Shown here: piece after piece, positions 8,405 through 19,870 of the stretch | Position numbering within the stretch: position 1 is the stretch's first letter | How the letters are laid out: each line of letters starts with the position of its first letter | DNA from: a virus | DNA length: 20,725 nt | Virus record (IMG/VR): IMGVR_UViG_3300005882_000030 | Span: 1-20,725 of that record | Reading direction: 5' to 3' (one strand) | Program-made: the position numbers and the translations under genes | The notes under the pieces: model-generated | Told to the model about the DNA's origin: nothing | Database searches by the model: none | The model's input: the letters and a program-made list of their open reading frames with translations, nothing else

Positions 8405-10669
8405 TTACCTTATAAAGGGGCAAAATTTACTATAATTTTTAGTAAAAAAGGAATCATTTGATAATTTCTTAATTTTAATACCTTCATTTTCTTTTGCAGA
8501 TATAATTCTTTTATATCTATCTGCTCTTAATATAAATAACATAATTCCAGCTGATACCCTATCAAAGTTACCATCAGCATTCCATTTAATACATTCTTCT
8601 ATATATCCTAAACTTCTTAATCTATGTAGGTTTAATCTCTCATCTTCATCATCACCATAAGCTTTTGTAACCATCCAATCAGCTTGAAGTAGTCTACCCC
8701 AAGAGTTAATAGGAGCAGAAGCTCTAGTACCTTTAGCTCTATTACCATATAAATTAGTAGCTTTAATAAGCTCCATATCTTTAAGTATTTGAGGTGTATC
8801 ACATAAATAATGTAATGCATTTTTCTCATCAAAGAATGAAAATAAACCTTTCAAGTTGCTCTCATAATTAGCTTCAGCATTATAAAATTTTAATAATCTT
8901 AAAGCTATTTCATAAGCATCTCTAGCTTTTCTAGGTCTACCTGAATACTCTGCAACTATTCTATCAGTAAAGGTATCCATTACTAACATACTAAATAAAG
9001 ATTCTCCTGTATCAGAATCAATAGGGTCAATTCCAGCGATATACCTACCTCTCTGTATAGTACCTTCAGCATTTTTACGAGGCATTTCAAATATCTCTAC
9101 AGCTCCAGTTTTATTACCACCTGTTAATTCATAACTCCTTAATGGATATAAATCTGCATTTAACTTCCATTCTACCTCTCCTGAGTTATTAACTATTAAA
9201 TCTCCAACATAATGTTCTGCAACAAATGTTTCTTTCTTAATAGATATTGTTTCTAAGTATTCTTTTAGATCTGCTACAGGAAATACTGTACCTTCAGTTC
9301 TCATTACAGCCTCTTGAGGAGTAACAGGTTCCTCAGCTTTCTTTTGTGTAATTGCTAATGCATCTGTAGAGTTATATTTAACTTGATATCTTTCTAAACA
9401 TATGTCTACTAATGCTTTAATAACATCTGGTTCACCAGTTTCTTCATCATAACAACCGTTTCTATTTAAGTAACCTCCCCAAAAGAAACCACATAATGTT
9501 TCACCGTTAGTATTTCTATCATATACATTAGGTATACCATAAATATTATAAGCTCCTGGATTATAAAATAATTTCTCTGAACCTTCAAAAGAAGCCCCTT
9601 CAGTACCACCAGTACCACCAGCAAGCATAAATCCAAATGATACATCTCCATCTTCCACAGCTTTTCTATTAACGTTCCAAGCTTTTTCTAAGTTAGGAAA
9701 TAAACCGTCCTCTTCATAATGTATTAGAGGACCCCTTATACCCCTAGCTTTATCAGGATTATCTTTAAGTGATATTCCAAATACAGAAGATAATAAACCT
9801 TTACGTGCACCATATTCATCCTCATATCCTATTTGGACTTCCATAGCTTTTTTACCATCTACAAGCCTCATACGAGGTAATGGTGTATGTTCTCCTATCC
9901 AATCTAGACAATCTAATACTTTACCCCATATACCTTTATCTCCAGATAAGAATCCTTTATCAGATGCTAAATGAAAGTTAGGGTTACCAGAACCTGGGAA
10001 TATATACATATTTCTAGGTGATTCAGAAGCATTTTTAAAGCTAAAGCCAATCCCTCTCGTCTTGAGAATTTTACCATGTTGACCATTTTCTTTAGCTGCA
10101 TGTGTGTAATGAAAATATAAATAATCTCCTAACCAAGGCTTAGGGAACTTTCTAACACGTTCACCTCTCTCTTTTTTACTACCAGAAGAAGATTTTTTAT
10201 CTTTCTTTTCAGTTAACCATATTGGACTATAATTCCAATAGAAGTATAATTCTCCTGGTATCCATTCACCATCAGGTCTAACTAATCCATATTTCCATCT
10301 ATGTAATTCTTGAGCCCAAAAAGCAGCATATTCAGATTTAGGATTAGGGTTAGGTATTAAATTAGTATATCTACCATTTTTTTCAAAAAAAATAGCTCTT
10401 TCTCTAAAAAAATCTAAATCTTCTAATATATGTGGATTAGTTAAATCTATCTTTCTTCTACCATCCTCATAAGGAACTTCTTCACCTTCTTTATTAATGT
10501 AAGTCATGACCTCACAATCTTTAATATAAGGTCTATCAATAGAAGTTAAATTCTGTATAAACTTAACTTGAGATATATATTCTAATACATCATCCCATAC
10601 CTCTTTAGGGACTCTTTCTTTAAGTTCATCATTTAATGGTGATTGATAATGATTTAATTTTAATTCCAT
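8405..10669 (-). CDS. terL: Terminase large subunit (packaging ATPase and nuclease)
   Basis: The 754-residue protein drives DNA into the prohead and cuts the concatemer. In place of the canonical GxxxxGKS P-loop the ATPase half has KTRGIGFSFKN (about residues 203-213), the deviant form I recall for crAss-like terminases. LIHYEEDG (315-322) is the Walker B with the catalytic acid at E319/E320, and AGGTGGTEG (350-358) is the coupling motif. The nuclease half shows the three acidic positions of an RNase H-like fold: D548 in AGIDPIDSD, E603 in NYESN and D703 in NFDRVSAG. The C-terminus SFFTKNYSKF is also familiar from this family. The start overlaps the GroEL-like gene's end by 10 bases. No intron or intein interrupts it. 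Confidence 0.93.
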   Translation of the reverse strand: MELKLNHYQSPLNDELKERVPKEVWDDVLEYISQVKFIQNLTSIDRPYIKDCEVMTYINKEGEEVPYEDGRRKIDLTNPHILEDLDFFRERAIFFEKNGRYTNLIPNPNPKSEYAAFWAQELHRWKYGLVRPDGEWIPGELYFYWNYSPIWLTEKKDKKSSSGSKKERGERVRKFPKPWLGDYLYFHYTHAAKENGQHGKILKTRGIGFSFKNASESPRNMYIFPGSGNPNFHLASDKGFLSGDKGIWGKVLDCLDWIGEHTPLPRMRLVDGKKAMEVQIGYEDEYGARKGLLSSVFGISLKDNPDKARGIRGPLIHYEEDGLFPNLEKAWNVNRKAVEDGDVSFGFMLAGGTGGTEGASFEGSEKLFYNPGAYNIYGIPNVYDRNTNGETLCGFFWGGYLNRNGCYDEETGEPDVIKALVDICLERYQVKYNSTDALAITQKKAEEPVTPQEAVMRTEGTVFPVADLKEYLETISIKKETFVAEHYVGDLIVNNSGEVEWKLNADLYPLRSYELTGGNKTGAVEIFEMPRKNAEGTIQRGRYIAGIDPIDSDTGESLFSMLVMDTFTDRIVAEYSGRPRKARDAYEIALRLLKFYNAEANYESNLKGLFSFFDEKNALHYLCDTPQILKDMELIKATNLYGNRAKGTRASAPINSWGRLLQADWMVTKAYGDDEDERLNLHRLRSLGYIEECIKWNADGNFDRVSAGIMLFILRADRYKRIISAKENEGIKIKKLSNDSFFTKNYSKFCPFIR

Positions 10670-12087
10670 CTATTATTATTTACAACTACAGCTTTAGTAC
10701 TTAGTATCACTTTAGATACTGATATAGCATTTTGTATAGCTACTCTTGTAACTTTTACTGGATCTATAATACCTTTTTCAAATAAATTATCTTTTAAATC
10801 TACTTTGGCTCCATTATCTATTATCTTATTATAAGGTTCTGTAAGACATTCTTGAAACATAGTAGGCATCATAGGACTAATAAGATATAAAGCTTTACCA
10901 GCACCCTCTATAATACCCTCTTCTAATGCACAAGATACAGCTAATACAGCGTCATCTATTCTATCTTTACGCTCTTTCATTTCTACTTCAGATTTACCAC
11001 CAACTTTAATTATAGAAGTAACACTTTGTAGATTATCTATTCTTTGTTGTATTAAACCTTTTTGATTACTTTTAGCTTCTTTAAGGTTTAATTTTAAATC
11101 TGATATTAATTCTTCAACTTTTTTAGGTGTATTTTTTACAGTTAGTACTGTATGTTCAATACCTACAGTTATATTACTTAACATATGGGCAGTTACATTA
11201 TTACTATAATTTTTAACTTCACTTGAAGTATATAACTTTATATCTGATATTAAATCTTTTCTATGTTGTGCAAACCCAGGACTTTTAATTAAAACTATAT
11301 TTAATTTATTTTTATTAAAATTATCCTTTAGTAATGACACTACCTGTTCTGTGAAGTGATCTGCAATTATTGCTATACCTTGTGAATTACTTTCAATTGC
11401 ATGAGCATATGGTTTTAAATTATCTAATTGTCCATCTATAATTAGTAAAGGTATGTTTTTATACTCAGCTATTTGTTTAGCTCCATTAGTAATGAAAGCT
11501 TTATCAAATATAGGAGCTTCTATTCTCATACCTCTAATAACTTCTAAATCATCATATTCTTTGTCTGATTCAAGAACTTTAACTATTTTACTTTTATTAA
11601 AAGCTTTCTGTATTAATTCTCCTATGTTTGGATCATTATTAGATGCTATAGTAGCTACATTAACTATATCTGTAGGTTTTAATTTTTTAGATTTTTTCCT
11701 AAGTTCATCTATTACATATTTTTCAAGCAGTTCTAATTGAACTTTAATCTCATTATATTCTACCCCTTCATTTAACAACTGAAACCCTTTATTTATAATA
11801 GCTTGTGCTAAACAAGTAGAAGTAGTTGTTCCGTCTCCAGCTAAAGATACTGTTTTATTAGCCACTTCTTTAATTAAGTTAGCAGCTATATTCTTAACTG
11901 TATCGTCAAAAAATATAGATTTAGCTACTGATACTCCATCTTTTGTTATATATGGATTACCATTAAGATCTGTTATAATTACAGTAGATCCATTAGGACC
12001 TAATGTAAGTGTTACAGCATCTGCCAATTCATTAATACCTTCTAATAATAATCTTTGACATTCCTTCCCTTTAATTATCCTCTCCAT
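10660..12087 (-). CDS. groEL-like: GroEL-like chaperonin (phage-encoded Cpn60)
   Basis: Chaperonin signatures are present along the whole length: LADAVTLTLGPNGSTVII (about 21-38, phosphate loop), ITKDGVSVAKSI (47-58, D50), AGDGTTTSTCLAQAI (83-97, D85 equivalent to the E. coli catalytic D87), IKVGGKSEVEMKERKDRIDD (360-379, D379 equivalent to D398), EEGIIEGAGKAL (389-400) and GIIDPVKVTRVAIQNAISVS (439-458). The apical part aligns by eye through EAPIFDKAFITN and IKSPGFAQHRKDLISDI. In that alignment one of the aromatic substrate-binding residues (F204) is kept and two tyrosines are replaced. At 475 residues it is about 70 shorter than bacterial GroEL and lacks the Gly-Gly-Met tail. All ATPase residues are kept, so it is probably active. 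It sits directly before the terminase, and a GroES-like gene lies three genes upstream. Confidence 0.93.
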   Translation of the reverse strand: MERIIKGKECQRLLLEGINELADAVTLTLGPNGSTVIITDLNGNPYITKDGVSVAKSIFFDDTVKNIAANLIKEVANKTVSLAGDGTTTSTCLAQAIINKGFQLLNEGVEYNEIKVQLELLEKYVIDELRKKSKKLKPTDIVNVATIASNNDPNIGELIQKAFNKSKIVKVLESDKEYDDLEVIRGMRIEAPIFDKAFITNGAKQIAEYKNIPLLIIDGQLDNLKPYAHAIESNSQGIAIIADHFTEQVVSLLKDNFNKNKLNIVLIKSPGFAQHRKDLISDIKLYTSSEVKNYSNNVTAHMLSNITVGIEHTVLTVKNTPKKVEELISDLKLNLKEAKSNQKGLIQQRIDNLQSVTSIIKVGGKSEVEMKERKDRIDDAVLAVSCALEEGIIEGAGKALYLISPMMPTMFQECLTEPYNKIIDNGAKVDLKDNLFEKGIIDPVKVTRVAIQNAISVSKVILSTKAVVVNNNRWN

Positions 12088-15890: not shown

Positions 15891-16074
15891 TAGAATTCCT
15901 TTCTTTTTCTATAATTTCATTAATAATAATTTCTATGTCAAATATTGTATTTTCACATAATTCTACATCATTAGTAATTATATTTAAACCTTCTTCTCTA
16001 TCATATAATATAGTTAATCCATTTTCAAATGAATATCTATAAGTATTAGGTTTAATTTCAATATCTTTTCCCAT
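15883..16074 (-). CDS. Small acidic phage protein (63 aa), unknown
   Basis: Beta-rich first half (KPNTYRYSFENGLTILYDRE) followed by an acidic helical end (TIFDIEIIINEIIEKERN). No known domain. The start shares one base with the upstream stop and the end overlaps the 90-aa gene by 8 bases, supporting real translation in the chain. Confidence 0.58.
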   Translation of the reverse strand: MGKDIEIKPNTYRYSFENGLTILYDREEGLNIITNDVELCENTIFDIEIIINEIIEKERNSNE

Positions 16075-16364
16075 TATAAACTCTCTATAAATAATTTAAA
16101 CAAATTATAATCCTTTCTCTTAATAATAACAAAATCACCTTTAAAATCCACATCAGCTACATCCTCCATAGGATAATATTGTTTTGTTCTAATAAGTTCA
16201 TCTGATAAATAATCAATAGCATTATGTAATACTAATTTCTTTTCTCTATCTAACTTACTTTCATTTAATGTTCCACTATTATTTATATTAACAGCAGACT
16301 TATGATCTATTACTACATGGAATACATCTTCCTCTAATACTTCTAATATTTCTTCTTTATTCAT
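16074..16364 (-). CDS. Small phage protein (96 aa), unknown
   Basis: An acidic N-terminal helix (KEEILEVLEEDVFHVVIDHK), a polar loop, a helix around KLVLHNAIDYLSDELIRTKQ and two C-terminal beta strands (DFKGDFVIIKRKDY). No recognised domain or motif. It overlaps the 93-aa gene upstream by 8 bases, and its stop meets the next start. Confidence 0.58.
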   Translation of the reverse strand: MNKEEILEVLEEDVFHVVIDHKSAVNINNSGTLNESKLDREKKLVLHNAIDYLSDELIRTKQYYPMEDVADVDFKGDFVIIKRKDYNLFKLFIESL

Positions 16365-16638
16365 CTCCCAAATTCATCTTTACATTACTACTTACTATTC
16401 CTTTACTATTAAATATAAGTACATCTTTAATCCATTTCTTTTTATGTTCTACAAATATTTGTAATTTCTTATTACCTTCTGTAGTATATTCTATAGCAAC
16501 GTTTATATTTGTAATTTCATTACCTCTATACTTTCTAGTATAATAGTTTTTTCTATTCCAAACCTCTCTAATATTATATACTAAATCTTGTTTTATTTCT
16601 AGATACTTATTAAATACTTCTGTTTCTATTATATTCAT
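16357..16638 (-). CDS. Small phage protein (93 aa), unknown, first gene after a promoter
   Basis: Mixed helix-strand protein: IETEVFNKYLEIKQDLVYNI, a basic segment VWNRKNYYTRKYRG, then alternating strands NINVAIEYTTEGNKKLQIFV. Unrecognised. It is the first gene downstream of the promoter at 16702-16733, so it opens the long operon running through PhoH to the terminase. Two in-frame ATGs exist nearby only at the listed start; an AT-rich leader with no clear Shine-Dalgarno precedes it, as is usual in Bacteroidota. Confidence 0.6.
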   Translation of the reverse strand: MNIIETEVFNKYLEIKQDLVYNIREVWNRKNYYTRKYRGNEITNINVAIEYTTEGNKKLQIFVEHKKKWIKDVLIFNSKGIVSSNVKMNLGDE

Positions 16639-16701
16639 ATATTACTATATATTTACTATATATTTCTTTTGTTACTTTTCTTTGTTTGTATCAAACTTAT
16701 A

Positions 16702-16733
16702 CAAAGGTACGAAATATTTTTGACAATTCCAAA
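16702..16733 (-). promoter_or_regulatory. Bacteroidota-type promoter, second copy of the twin pair
   Basis: On the minus strand TTTG (16733-16730), 20 bases, then TACCTTTG (16709-16702), matching the TTTG / TAnnTTTG consensus. The block TTTGGAATTGTCA and the flank GTACCTTTGTATA are shared with the promoter at 17464-17495. The leader holds GTAACAAAAGAAATAT, a variant of the repeated unit in the other leader. It would drive the 93-aa gene and everything downstream. Confidence 0.85.
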
Positions 16734-16750
16734 TTTTTTATCAATTATTT

Positions 16751-16936
16751 TTAAAAAACTTTTTCTCTACTCAATTCAAACTCTCTACAATAGTACGTAT
16801 CACCCCATCCTACCTGTACTTCATAAGATAATGCTTTTGTCAAATAATAATAAATAATATTAGTTATTATACCTGGTTCACTATCTGGAGTGTTATGGTA
16901 TACTTTTTCTCCTATTTTAAATTCTGGTACTTTCAT
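16751..16936 (-). CDS. Small SH3-like barrel protein (61 aa)
   Basis: Short beta-rich protein with the order FKIGEKVYHNTPDSEPGIIT, SYEVQVGWGDTYYC and FELSREK. A GEKVYH strand, a glycine turn, a central V.W strand and an ELS.EK end is the pattern of small SH3-like or Tudor-like barrels common in phages, some of which bind DNA or RNA. Its ATG overlaps the stop of the 40-aa membrane gene (ATGA). It ends just upstream of the second promoter. Confidence 0.65.
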   Translation of the reverse strand: MKVPEFKIGEKVYHNTPDSEPGIITNIIYYYLTKALSYEVQVGWGDTYYCREFELSREKVF

Positions 16937-17055
16937 TTCTTCTTCTTTTTATTTCTTATATCAAAACATAAATTTAAAGCTCCATATATAGCCAATCCAG
17001 ACCATAGTATAAATCCTATTATATCCCACCATGAATCTATTAAATATATCTGCAT
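16933..17055 (-). CDS. Very small membrane protein (40 aa)
   Basis: ATG at 17055-17053 and TGA at 16935-16933, the stop overlapping the next start as ATGA. The peptide starts MQIYLIDSWWDIIGFILWSG, continues LAIYGALNLCF, and ends with a basic tail of RNKKKKK. A single hydrophobic segment (about residues 12-31) followed by five lysines predicts one transmembrane helix with its C-terminus in the cytoplasm. It lies 4 bases after the stop of the 116-aa gene. Candidate roles such as superinfection exclusion or lysis are speculative. Confidence 0.65.
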   Translation of the reverse strand: MQIYLIDSWWDIIGFILWSGLAIYGALNLCFDIRNKKKKK

Positions 17056-17059
17056 TATA

Positions 17060-17410
17060 TTAATATTTCTTAAATGTGTTAAAATTATTCAAATCTATTA
17101 CTTTCTTCTTAGGTTCTTTAATAGTTGTTCTAGTATTAAATATACCTTCCTTATCTACTAGCTCACAATGTTCCTGAAACTTCTTTAAAGCCTCTCTAAT
17201 CATGTCTAAATTAAACTGTCCAGTGGGTTCAAACCAATCACTTACATACATTAATCTATCATCTCTTTTAATAAATGTTTCTAATAGTATTCTATTAACT
17301 GGACCATCATATTTAAAGTAATTAGATACTTGTAAGTTATATTTAGGATATCTTAACTCTCTATACTTAACTGCTAAGTCAAACCAATCACTTCTTTGTC
17401 TCTTAGTCAT
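17060..17410 (-). CDS. Phage protein of unknown function (116 aa), first minus-strand gene
   Basis: First gene of the minus-strand half, directly after the promoter at 17464-17495. The N-terminus is basic and aromatic (MTKRQRSDWFDLAVKYRELR), followed by a VSNYFKYDGPVNRILLETFI helix, an acidic middle (YVSDWFEPTGQFNLDMIREA) and a lysine-rich C-terminus (IKEPKKKVIDLNNFN). It could be a small DNA-binding or regulatory protein, given its place next to the divergent control region, but no motif proves it. Confidence 0.62.
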   Translation of the reverse strand: MTKRQRSDWFDLAVKYRELRYPKYNLQVSNYFKYDGPVNRILLETFIKRDDRLMYVSDWFEPTGQFNLDMIREALKKFQEHCELVDKEGIFNTRTTIKEPKKKVIDLNNFNTFKKY

Positions 17411-17463
17411 ATATTATCATATATTATTAAATATTTCTTTGTTACTTTCTTTGTTACACTATA

Positions 17464-17495
17464 CAAAGGTACAAAAAATAAATGACAATTCCAAA
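17464..17495 (-). promoter_or_regulatory. Bacteroidota-type promoter, first copy of the twin pair
   Basis: On the minus strand TTTG (17495-17492), 20 bases, then TACCTTTG (17471-17464). The downstream leader contains a perfect tandem pair of GTAACAAAGAAA, followed by TATTTAATAATATATG. It should drive the 116-aa gene and its two small followers. The shared 13-base TTTGGAATTGTCA block with the 16.7-kb promoter is longer than the consensus requires and may be bound by a phage factor. Confidence 0.87.
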
Positions 17496-17664
17496 TATTT
17501 TAACACTTTTATTTAGAAATATAGCTAAAAAATTTTTTTTGGTAATTTTTTAAAAAGTTTATTATAGGTGTTTACGTTGGATAATCTAAACATCAACCCC
17601 CACTCTTTTTTGCTTTTGCGGATACCCCTATGGTACTATTTATAAATCTTAAAACATAGAAAAG
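17496..17664. promoter_or_regulatory. Divergent control region with inverted repeat
   Basis: Non-coding stretch between the two transcription directions. It holds A/T runs, an inverted repeat GGTGTTTA (17567-17574) / TAAACATC (17587-17594) with a 12-base spacer, and a C-rich patch (CATCAACCCCCACTC). A weak plus-strand promoter candidate is TTTG (17609-17612), 21 bases, then TACTATTT (17634-17641), which misses two positions of TAnnTTTG. The inverted repeat could be an operator or an RNA leader hairpin. Plus-strand transcription of the SSB-like gene and the structured RNA probably begins here. Confidence 0.45.
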
Positions 17665-18045
17665 ATGAAAACAGTTAAAAATGAACACACAGGACAGCCA
17701 GAGTACAGAATACCAGCTACAGTAGTTTCTATAGCTAATTCAGTTGCAAAATTGAAGAATGATAAAGAAACACCCTATCGTATGGGAGTAATTAGTATAG
17801 TATATCCAGCTACAGGCGAGAAAGATGAAGTTTCGTGCAGATTCTACGTTGCATCACTTGAAGCTAATCCTGATTTGTTTAAGGCAGGTTCTACCATTGA
17901 AGCTCACATCCAAGCGGAGGGAGAGTATGCAGGTAGAGCAACAGCTCATTTAGCAGGCTTTAAAGTAGCTGATATGAGTAAATTCGGTGCTTCTACTAAA
18001 GCTACTACTAAAGTAGCAGAAGAAGAAGAAATCGAATTAGAGTAG
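17665..18045 (+). CDS. SSB-like OB-fold protein (126 aa)
   Basis: Beta-rich core (about 14-100) with strands EYRIPATVVSIANSVAKL, YRMGVISIVYPA, EVSCRFYVASLE, GSTIEAHIQAEGEY and ATAHLAGFKVADM. This order and the length suggest an OB fold, as in single-stranded DNA-binding proteins. The end is a flexible Ala/Thr linker and an acidic tail (VAEEEEIELE), as in SSBs that recruit partners through the C-terminus. The canonical hydrophobic tip (DDDIPF) is absent. Codons are noticeably richer in G and C than in the neighbours, consistent with high expression. It opens the plus-strand transcript that continues into the structured RNA, since the GAAA hairpin after its stop has no U-tract. SSB is the best guess; another OB-fold protein is possible. 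Confidence 0.6.
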   Translation: MKTVKNEHTGQPEYRIPATVVSIANSVAKLKNDKETPYRMGVISIVYPATGEKDEVSCRFYVASLEANPDLFKAGSTIEAHIQAEGEYAGRATAHLAGFKVADMSKFGASTKATTKVAEEEEIELE

Positions 18046-18047
18046 AT

Positions 18048-18084
18048 TGATAGTGACAGGGAGAAATCCTTGTCACTTATATCA
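18048..18084 (+). other. GAAA-tetraloop hairpin at the 5' end of the structured region
   Basis: GTGACAGGGA (18053-18062) pairs with TCCTTGTCAC (18067-18076), including one G·U, around a GAAA (GNRA) tetraloop. TGATA/TATCA add five outer pairs across a 3-base bulge. It starts 2 bases after the SSB-like stop. A U-tract is missing, so it is a poor terminator and a better RNA 3'-end protector or the first domain of the large RNA. Confidence 0.7.
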
Positions 18085-18143
18085 TTAAATACTACTAAAC
18101 CAGTGTCACTTATCTAAGTGTCATTGTTATCTAAATATCCTAG

Positions 18144-18283
18144 GTAATGAGAGGGTAGTGAGAGTTTATAATTATAAATAATATTAATATTATGTGATTT
18201 AATAGTGTTAAATTAGTGATGAAACGCTGTTAAGTGTAGTGTTTATAACCATTCACTACATATCACACTCTCACTCTCATTAC
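18144..18283 (+). other. Multi-branch RNA domain closed by a 17-bp bulged stem
   Basis: GTAATGAGA (18144-18152) pairs with TCTCATTAC (18275-18283) and GTGAGAGT (18158-18165) with ACTCTCAC (18267-18274). The two helices are contiguous on the 3' side and separated by a 5-base GGGTA bulge on the 5' side. Inside are hairpins ATTTAA/TTAAAT (18197-18213) and TGTAGTG/CACTACA (18235-18260), plus two adjacent palindromes (18165-18178 and 18178-18193). Confidence 0.7.
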
Positions 18284-18352
18284 AATTTACCATATTATAA
18301 ACAATAATATAGCTAAATAAATAATAACTAGGTAGTAATACACCTTAAAAGT

Positions 18353-18418
18353 ATTACCATTGTACATTATGAAATAAATGTATATCTTCAACCAGATGGA
18401 TGGTACAATAAGGGTAAT
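18353..18418 (+). other. Bulged 13-bp RNA stem
   Basis: ATTACC (18353-18358) pairs with GGTAAT (18413-18418) and ATTGTAC (18359-18365) with GTACAAT (18403-18409). The helices are contiguous on the 5' side with a 3-base AAG bulge on the 3' side. A small hairpin ATCT/AGAT (18384-18397) lies inside. Confidence 0.65.
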
Positions 18419-18475
18419 CAGTCCTTATAATTAACTATAAAATCCCATTAGGTAATTACTGCAGTAGTTATTGGT

Positions 18476-18528
18476 GCACTTATATACACTGTCAATATAT
18501 AATTAATATTGGTAAATACAATAAGTGC
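18476..18528 (+). other. Nested RNA hairpin
   Basis: GCACTTAT (18476-18483) pairs with ATAAGTGC (18521-18528). CAATAT/ATATTG (18493-18498 / 18506-18511) form an inner helix with a 7-base loop, leaving near-symmetrical internal loops of 9 bases on each side. A hairpin with 7 pairs and a TGCA loop lies just upstream at 18453-18470. Confidence 0.65.
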
Positions 18529-18835
18529 TTATAAGACATTATAATACTAACCTTCAGAATTTAAATATTCACGGTAATGTCGTTAAGTTAACTAGATTAA
18601 CCACTAATAGTATTATTAATTATTTATTAATAGAGGACAGTTAATGGTCTTTATCCTCGCACTAAATAGCAAGATAGACATGCGCTAATTATGGATATTT
18701 TTATCACAAAATTCTACGTATCAGCCAATTCGTAGTAGGTATTTAATACCTTAAAGGCTAACCACTTATACTAGTTAAACGGTGGAAAAGAATACTAGTA
18801 AAAATTATAATATTGAATAATAGTAGGTATTATAG

Positions 18836-18968
18836 ACTCATATTGCACTAATGAAGCACTTGATGAAGGTGCGAAGCTTATGAGTATAATTTTTAAACTC
18901 TCATCCAATTTGCAGGTTTAAACCAGTTTAGAGCTGAGTTAGTCAAGGTGCAACCTTGTGAGAGTTTA
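18836..18968 (+). other. Two adjacent closed RNA domains
   Basis: ACTCATA (18836-18842) pairs with TATGAGT (18879-18885) and encloses GCACTT/AGGTGC (18856-18872, one U·G). Directly after, TAAACTCTCA (18894-18903) pairs with TGAGAGTTTA (18959-18968) and encloses CAAGGT/ACCTTG (18944-18958) and the palindrome GGTTTAAACC (18915-18924). The 13-mer GTGAGAGTTTATA at the 3' end also occurs at 18158-18170. Confidence 0.65.
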
Positions 18969-19008
18969 TATTCTTCACAACATAGAATTAAAACTCAAGT
19001 TGTTGAGC

Positions 19009-19054
19009 TGTGTTATAGGCTACGTAACACATAAGCAAAAGAACAGAAAGCCTA
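19009..19054 (+). other. Possible H-type pseudoknot
   Basis: TGTGTTA (19009-19015) pairs with TAACACA (19025-19031). The 9-base loop begins TAGGCT (19016-19021), which is complementary to AGCCTA (19049-19054) downstream. The 17 bases linking the helices (19032-19048) are mostly adenine, as in pseudoknots stabilised by minor-groove contacts. Opening one pair of the first stem gives the single base needed to cross the second helix. Confidence 0.5.
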
Positions 19055-19317
19055 TTAACAATAACACGAGAAAACCTCTGATGAGTGACTTAAACGTGTA
19101 TAAATAAAAGTTGAAACATCTTGTAATGTGTAGATGCATATACAATATAAAGAGAAAACTCATTTTAGAGTTTATTAGAATGAAACAAATGTGATTGTAG
19201 TTAATATGCAGTCTTTAAGTAGGCAACTACATTTGTGTATAGTTCTTACTTTTTATATATTACAAGTTTAATAGTGAGAAAATCCTATTAGTTAAAATGT
19301 CAGGTTTAATAATTTAA

Positions 19318-19485
19318 AACATATATCATGTTAACAATATTAAAGAAGCTGAAATACTTGCTAGAAATAGTTTAAATAATGGATTTATGGAAAGTACTTT
19401 AGTTGATTATGACAAAAGTAGAGAAGAAACTTTTCCTAATTGGAGAAATGAATGTAGTGAAGAATTACAAAAAGTATTAACGTAA
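19318..19485 (+). pseudogene. Coding-like open stretch without a start codon (55 codons)
   Basis: Between two in-frame TAA codons lies a reading frame with protein-like composition: NNIKEAEILARNSLNNGFME, then STLVDYDKSREETFPNWRNE and CSEELQKVLT. The wobble positions are A/T-rich as in the phage genes, and the stretch shows less obvious pairing than its flanks. The first ATG is at 19387 and would give only 32 residues. It may be a gene remnant, an exon-like piece, or a short gene using a non-ATG start. Unrecognised. Confidence 0.35.
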
Positions 19486-19792
19486 AGAGAACTGAAACCG
19501 ACCAGCTCTATAAATATTAGAAGTGCTAGGAATACATAACTACGCACAAGTGTACCAACTGTATTGTGATATGTTGGATAAAGAATATACAAGTCCTACA
19601 ATATATTTGAAGCGTAGAAATACCCAAGATAATATTAAGCCGAGTAGGTACTATTAGTTTAGTTAGATATTCTAATAATAATACACTTAGGAGTTCACAG
19701 CAAGAGATAAAAACTTACAGATTGAGTTAAGTAGGCTGAAACATTTATTATCTCGTGACCATTTATAATAGTGAATAGCACAAGGTTATTTA

Positions 19793-19870
19793 ATGGCTAT
19801 GTTGGAGTCAGCTATTATAGATGGTGCTAATAGAATACTTATTGCAAAAGTTTTAACAGTTGTACCTTAA
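19793..19870 (+). CDS. Possible 25-aa peptide ending inside the terminator loop
   Basis: The frame reads MAMLESAIIDGANRILIAKV followed by LTVVP and a TAA at 19868-19870, which lies in the loop of the terminator. In-frame TAA TAG TGA sit upstream at 19768-19776. The peptide looks like a protein C-terminus. It could be a leader peptide coupling translation to termination, or a fragment of a lost gene. Low confidence that it is translated. Confidence 0.25.
   Translation: MAMLESAIIDGANRILIAKVLTVVP

Follow-up and report, generated by a model that had tools for sequence, protein, structure and literature searches.

Candidate tandem promoters with a TGTCA element at the head of the chaperonin–terminase–portal–capsid arm of a Steigviridae-like phage

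Results

Gene context of the two promoters

The window, that is, the whole stretch of DNA analysed here, is a 20.7-kb record (20,725 nt) and a fragment of a phage genome, the source of which, as judged from its genes, is a Steigviridae-like (Crassvirales) phage. Tightly packed minus-strand open reading frames, which were taken as genes, run from position 17410 to the left end of the window, and the features at and downstream of the two promoters are the following.

17464–17495, minus strand: promoter P1, TTTGGAATTGTCATTTATTTTTTGTACCTTTG, consisting of TTTG (−33) with the GAATTGTCA extension, a 20-base spacer and TACCTTTG (−7 box)
17483–17495, minus strand: extended −33 block of P1, TTTGGAATTGTCA, with the TGTCA element at 17487–17483
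17434–17457, minus strand: P1 leader, A-rich, with a perfect 12-base tandem of two GTAACAAAGAAA units (17457–17446 and 17445–17434), found by eye
17060–17410, minus strand: first gene after P1, 116 aa, without Pfam or PHROG match
16702–16733, minus strand: promoter P2, TTTGGAATTGTCAAAAATATTTCGTACCTTTG, with 13-mer, spacing and TACCTTTG identical to those of P1
16721–16733, minus strand: extended −33 block of P2, TTTGGAATTGTCA, with the TGTCA element at 16725–16721
16663–16689, minus strand: P2 leader, with a looser pair of P1-type units, ACAAACAAAGAAA and GTAACAAAAGAAA (16689–16677 and 16675–16663), found by eye
16357–16638, minus strand: first gene after P2, 93 aa, without Pfam or PHROG match
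10660–12087, minus strand: phage GroEL-like chaperonin, whose closest named match is in Cellulophaga phage phi14:2
8405–10669, minus strand: terminase large subunit (TerL; phrog_6681), downstream of P1 and P2 in the same orientation

The portal and capsid genes (phrog_6547 and phrog_11589 by PHROG matches) are on the minus strand downstream of the promoters as well, and the test for a late-arm pair found Crassvirales-type TerL, portal and capsid downstream on the promoter strand in the window. The window TerL is ~38–42% identical to those of cr111_1, cr126_1, DAC15 and crAss001. BLASTN of positions 16000–18200 against annotated phages gave no match, and the first gene after P1 returned nothing when used as the query for close relatives; TerL was used instead. 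Among the 80 TerL loci scanned, homologues of the P2 gene were found behind a promoter of the same class at 10 relative loci (11 sites), and a homologue of the P1 gene at L354, plus one at L365 over 28 residues only. Separately, a region of ~1.8 kb without a long open frame lies between two divergent arms at 18046–19859, with no tRNA or Rfam match in it.

Anatomy of P1 and P2

A sequence-only reading of this DNA had proposed two minus-strand promoters with a shared block, an equal 20-base spacer in both, and spacer bases that differ while the block is conserved, and all three proposals were borne out. Both promoters are present exactly as listed above, each with TTTG–N20 spacing, and they are identical at 13/13 positions of the 13-mer, 8/8 of the −7 box and 4/5 of the next five bases, versus 6/11 in the N11 between block and box. 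The Bacteroidota primary-sigma promoter carries TTTG 19–21 bases upstream of its −7 box. TTTG at N20 in P1 and P2 falls within this range, and TACCTTTG agrees with the TAnnTTTG form of that −7 box at both sites. The outer boxes are therefore ordinary Bacteroidota primary-sigma boxes, which match the sigma-ABfr consensus given in the accessible part of PMC7366714, and the novelty lies in the block between them. A scan of the window for E. coli-type promoters was uninformative, with 117 hits versus 129.6 in shuffles.

The 13 bases identical between P1 and P2 would suit a likeness arisen by chance or by recent duplication within this phage, and we regard the probability of this as negligible. TTTG–N20–TANNTTTG occurs at two sites in the window, P1 and P2 only, versus a mean of 0.14 in shuffles, and two such sites were reached by 1 of 100 window shuffles. 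With a position-weight matrix built solely from 160 sites of other phages, in which TTTG and TANNTTTG were held fixed, P2 scored 47.3 bits and P1 45.5 bits, and these were the only window matches of at least 6 bits; one of 20 Markov-shuffled windows reached that score, at 8.7 bits. These controls, together with the permuted 13-mer described below, speak against chance, and the diverged flanks (22/40 bases identical in the 40 upstream of each promoter) and the conservation of the pair in relatives refute the explanation. The two promoters had also been thought to split the small-gene cluster into two transcription units. This part did not hold: the scan found no terminator-like site between P1 and P2, and the units are therefore to be called tandem and overlapping.

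The leader repeats had likewise been described correctly, as a perfect tandem pair in P1 and a looser variant pair in P2. No RNA structure beyond chance was detected in the two leaders (fold z −0.27 for P1 and −1.17 for P2). Paired AACAAAG-type units were seen in 8 of 20 relative leaders, which were hand-picked rather than randomly sampled, and these eight came from seven loci whose TerL proteins are 74–76% identical, with one at 69%. Since Bacteroidota messages lack Shine-Dalgarno sequences, as stated in the accessible part of PMC6847099, a role in translation is probable for the A-rich leaders and their paired AACAAAG units.

Placement in crAss-like relatives and named phages

Pairing and position of the promoters are kept in relatives. 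At 45 of the 80 TerL loci, chosen for having more than ~3.4 kb upstream of TerL (L397, with 3.6 kb, was left out, and several are near copies), 83 sites were located upstream of and facing TerL, three downstream on the same strand and none on the other strand. Where at least 8 kb upstream of TerL was available, at least one promoter was present at 30/30 loci and two to four at 27/30. Among 70 distinct TerL-relative sites, TGTCA was exact in 43 and TTTG was found in 19, with TTAG and CTTG in the others. Fourteen long crAss-like contigs (1.25 Mb), taken from the 21 of at least 50 kb and chosen after the TerL placement scan, contained 27 TGTCA–N11–TANNTTTG sites versus 0 for the control; by position, 22 of the 27 are in the cluster upstream of TerL and five elsewhere. 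The regulon signal that had been suggested is thus not genome-wide in crAss-like phages, most copies in these 14 contigs being confined to that cluster.

In crAss001 (627 and 1625), DAC15 (1908 and 2480), cr111_1 (81747, 86870 and 90091) and phi14:2 (97757 and 97147), two to three TTTG–N20 promoters each were found at the start of the virion-gene arm or close to it, with TGTGG in place of TGTCA at DAC15 1908. One promoter lies 8.6 kb upstream of TerL in cr126_1, and in cr108_1 a single looser site precedes GroEL. Exceptions to this placement were recorded at phi14:2 97403 (plus strand, away from the arm) and 62147, cr111_1 46761 and cr126_1 83138. Of 15 named Bacteroidota phages, six matched the 13-mer pattern when three mismatches were tolerated (11 sites versus 2 for the control), and 11 matched TTTG–N20–TANNTTTG (31 sites versus 6). 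The stricter YTWG–N4–TNTCA–N11–TANNTTTG was found in five, all Steigviridae, at 13 sites versus 0; it was absent from cr108_1, although this phage also belongs to the Steigviridae, and from p-crAssphage (BK010471), crAss002, cr52_1, B124-14, FCL-2, 11b, Fpv3, DAC23 and phi38:1. Judged by sequence and placement, the P1/P2 pair is a predicted tandem late-arm promoter block; it is not unique to this phage and, within the crAss-like phages, not part of a genome-wide regulon.

A second promoter-like class, in which TTTGCAWAGRTKGA precedes TANNTTTG, was observed on the minus strand of three Steigviridae (crAss001 89177–89208, DAC15 83567–83598 and cr126_1 35302–35333). The crAss001 site falls within the end of a helicase gene, so this class may be conserved coding sequence.

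A rigid three-part frame shared by many phages

The phage promoters follow one pattern, YTWG–N4–TGTCA–N11–TANNTTTG. YTWG was positioned exactly 8 bases upstream of TGTCA–N11–TANNTTTG in 51/51 distinct crAss-like sites, the window included, and in 39/40 sites of other phages; when YTWGS, TGTCA and the −7 box were all demanded of a site, each gap showed a single spacing. This fixed frame argues for one rigid reader, such as the polymerase holoenzyme, and not for separately placed factors. The block also shares bases with the polymerase site and exceeds the usual −35 contact in length, as might be expected of an operator for a phage or host repressor across the −33 region, in which case its conservation would reflect regulation. 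We consider this very improbable, given that operators usually move, whereas the distance from the block to both boxes was constant in the sets tested, and that the block recurs in different phages and before recA.

On viral contigs, 15 stretches carried the exact pattern TTTGGAATTGTCA–N11–TACCTTTG, for which the sequence-only reading had proposed a scan. Once only TANNTTTG was required and the spacer left free, at least 119 stretches matched the 13-mer, versus three for a composition-matched permuted 13-mer, none of them with N11. Among the matches listed, the spacer of the exact-13-mer promoters in viral contigs was N11 at 89 of 108 distinct sites, N12 at nine and N10 at five; it was still N11 at 71 of 90 listed sites after those from the window and from the N11-only search loci had been excluded. 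New loci made up 83 of the 119 stretches listed in the second viral scan, and within these new loci 72 distinct listed sites had no −7 box within 30 bases. The 98 carrier loci plus the window formed 47 groups at two shared proteins (30 of them single) and 24 groups at one, although the relatedness of the loci is underestimated because the stretches are short; their GC content ranged from 0.24 to 0.46. A signal private to this phage, as had been envisaged, is contradicted by these many phage groups carrying the block.

Dozens of promoters of this type occur in other phage lineages. For TTTG–TANNTTTG, the phage genome G004 showed a peak of 55 sites at N20 versus 0–8 at any of the other spacings between 14 and 26, and N20 sites numbered 66 in G040 and 30 in G039, for which 100 of 345 kb were covered. 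The logo derived from TTTG–N20–TANNTTTG alone was TTTGGWANTGTCA with an A-rich flank and was similar in the three genomes; G004 fitted best, and fewer than half of the sites kept the inner G in G040 and G039 or the C in G040. In portal, capsid or terminase, G004 and G039 belong to other families than the window, and the G040 proteins tested were non-structural.

The G004 pieces L237 and L239 and the G040 pieces L242–L243 are those with dozens of such promoters. In some of these an inverted repeat was seen by eye that lies within the block and spacer or spans them; such repeats could be operators or attenuating hairpins. In the pair L024 and L007, a contig binned to a Chthoniobacterales MAG and a viral contig have almost identical promoter stretches, and the bin may therefore hold phage DNA.

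Occurrence in host chromosomes

That these are conserved promoter-like sites, as first proposed, was upheld, and host chromosomes carry the shared block far more rarely than phages do. Among 395 Bacteroidota genomes, one contained the exact pattern, and YTWG–N4–TGTCA–N11–TANNTTTG gave four matches in 147 Bacteroidota genomes (1.8–5.7 Mb) versus six for a reversed control. The closest of the four to the phage form, in G140, adjoins an integrase. Exact copies were nevertheless located before recA in two Cytophagia MAGs, G009 and G013, with further copies in these two before an RRM-type protein, a DEAD-box helicase and a repeated sequence (names read from sequence), and in G324 one copy precedes five tRNA genes (a tRNA operon). 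Because these copies precede host genes, some hosts may use the TGTCA element. G009, which was taken as a centre because a match was there, has eight full-pattern matches. Its repeated short sequence, preceded by the element at C104 (607–638 and 1348–1379) and on C46, C77 and C113, is possibly a mobile repeat.

The copies before recA, the RRM protein, the DEAD-box helicase and the tRNA operon were the reason for first reading the element as the optimum of an ordinary host promoter. Such an ordinary promoter at extreme consensus, the best form of a weak preference shared by host promoters and nothing new in kind, is a possible but less likely account, and since it overlaps the main reading the two are not exclusive. 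It draws on the Cytophagales genome G009, in which N20 sites numbered 45 versus 7–22 at other spacings and lean to the phage letters at several positions, counts that are biased upward because the stretches were chosen for holding matches. It draws also on rRNA promoters: 16S rRNA was found in 22 of 61 genomes, seven of which had TTTG–N19/20/21–TANNTTTG upstream, with a TTTGG core in four of the seven and, in one of these four, TCA at the corresponding position. As a host counterpart of the phage promoter the rRNA promoters were rejected, TGTCA being present in 0/7. The host-optimum reading was lowered because of the control-level count in the 147 genomes and because samples of hosts G098 and G144 showed no TTTG peak at N20; for TTG, N20 was the highest of 14 spacings in G098, at 31 versus 10–28. 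Given the control-level count and the missing peak, it is not evident that the host enzyme would recognise the pattern unaided, a point against the host-polymerase reading given below.

Proposed mechanism and reader of TGTCA

The reading we prefer, with a probability of about 0.6, is that P1 and P2 are tandem promoters for host RNA polymerase with its primary sigma factor, heading the chaperonin–terminase–portal–capsid arm, and that TGTCA raises polymerase binding. In the proposed scheme, the polymerase would meet a −33 box of form YTWG (here TTTG), then TGTCA starting 4 bases downstream (approximately −28 to −24), and the TANNTTTG −7 box 11 bases past TGTCA would complete the rigid frame. By raising polymerase binding, TGTCA would most likely allow phage promoters to out-compete host promoters, and the doubling would give more output and provide the genes after P2 with their own start.

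In a BLASTP comparison that covered part of G039, no protein family was found to be shared by the crAss-like phages with every other lineage sampled, and the widest family, which includes annotated intron endonucleases of crAss001, reached three of the five other sets; a host reader is therefore favoured, although small, fast-evolving regulators would be missed by such a comparison. No Sigma70_r4 match was found in 14 crAss-like relatives, phi14:2 or DAC15, and crAss001 had one, below the cut-off. Two Sigma70_r4-type domains above the cut-off were observed in the promoter-rich phage G004 (C1, 25758–25916 and 5657–5788).

Rather unlikely, in our estimate, is that TGTCA is bound by a phage-made activator or polymerase modifier, with host sigma reading the outer boxes and the phage factor setting late timing. 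The full pattern being frequent in phages and at control level in 147 host genomes would agree with such a factor, as would the arm being described as late in the accessible text of PMC10136315 and PMC8375218 and the VpsT-like regulator annotated in this operon of crAss001, cr111_1 and cr108_1. Against it, the element keeps the same position across phages with different structural genes, for which no common protein family was found, and it stands before recA in two Cytophagia MAGs.

On timing, in the accessible part of the review PMC10136315 the virion polymerase transcribes the early and middle genes of Crassvirales, the late ones being left, as likely, to the host polymerase, and late, rifampicin-sensitive expression of the arm is given as likely or expected. 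The accessible part of PMC8375218 makes both middle and late genes of crAss001 dependent on host polymerase, so that the two sources, as far as available, disagree on the middle genes; it places the inhibition of host transcription at 10–30 min and the start of the late genes at 30–60 min. Promoters so strong would be expected to act early, yet the terminase and structural genes of crAss001 are reported late, which stands against the host-polymerase reading. A tentative extension, which we hold to be doubtful, is that Bacteroidota RNA polymerase has a third core promoter element in TGTCA at −28 to −24, exploited by many phage lineages and avoided by nearly all hosts, which would keep phage promoters read during host shutdown.

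Discussion

P1 and P2 have in common with the sigma-ABfr promoter (TTTG at −33 and TAnnTTTG at −7) both boxes, their approximate distance and an orientation facing the genes, and differ from it by the extra TGTCA in a rigid frame and by the strict N20. The T5 and T7 A1 promoters of E. coli phages are near-consensus and are used to take over the host polymerase; P1 and P2 resemble them as phage promoters far closer to the ideal than host promoters are, whereas T5 and T7 A1 follow the E. coli −35/−10 grammar and are not known to have a separate element at −28 to −24. The MotA-dependent middle promoters of T4 depend on an activator with a site near −30. The extra element beside the −35 region is a feature that P1 and P2 share with them, but the −33 box is kept here and no common phage activator was found. 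Steigviridae late transcription, likely by host polymerase, as in crAss001 and phi14:2, concerns an arm with chaperonin, terminase and portal, and the same class of site as in the window.

Some of the most abundant human gut viruses belong to the Crassvirales. The three-part pattern provides an exact late-promoter candidate for the cultured phages crAss001, DAC15 and phi14:2, may point to a promoter element as yet undescribed in the phylum Bacteroidota, and offers compact candidate promoters for Bacteroidota genetics as well as a sequence tag for operon annotation in uncultured phages. In the literature searched, seen in part, outside of which lies the phi14:2 polymerase paper, neither the TGTCA element nor a late promoter of crAss phages was found described, and searching for the 13-mer gave unrelated papers only. 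The review PMC10136315 nowhere uses the word promoter, and the accessible part of PMC8375218 contains no phage promoter motif.

A conserved RNA behind one promoter in relatives

A conserved non-coding RNA of ~180 nt or more was observed behind one such promoter in crAss-like relatives (L407:3565–3739, L402:3256–3430, L371:2375–2558, L385:2209–2383 and 11 further relatives). A model of this RNA matched 15 loci of 44 sources, 10 of which were its own training loci, and gave no match in the window or in the supplied pieces of named phages. No Rfam match at gathering score was obtained for five of the loci, and single-sequence folds were no better than shuffles (z 0.39, −1.04 and 0.76). The RNA features a GCAAC/GTTGC hairpin and a GCGAGGU...ACCUCGC helix, three of whose pairs are changed on both sides.
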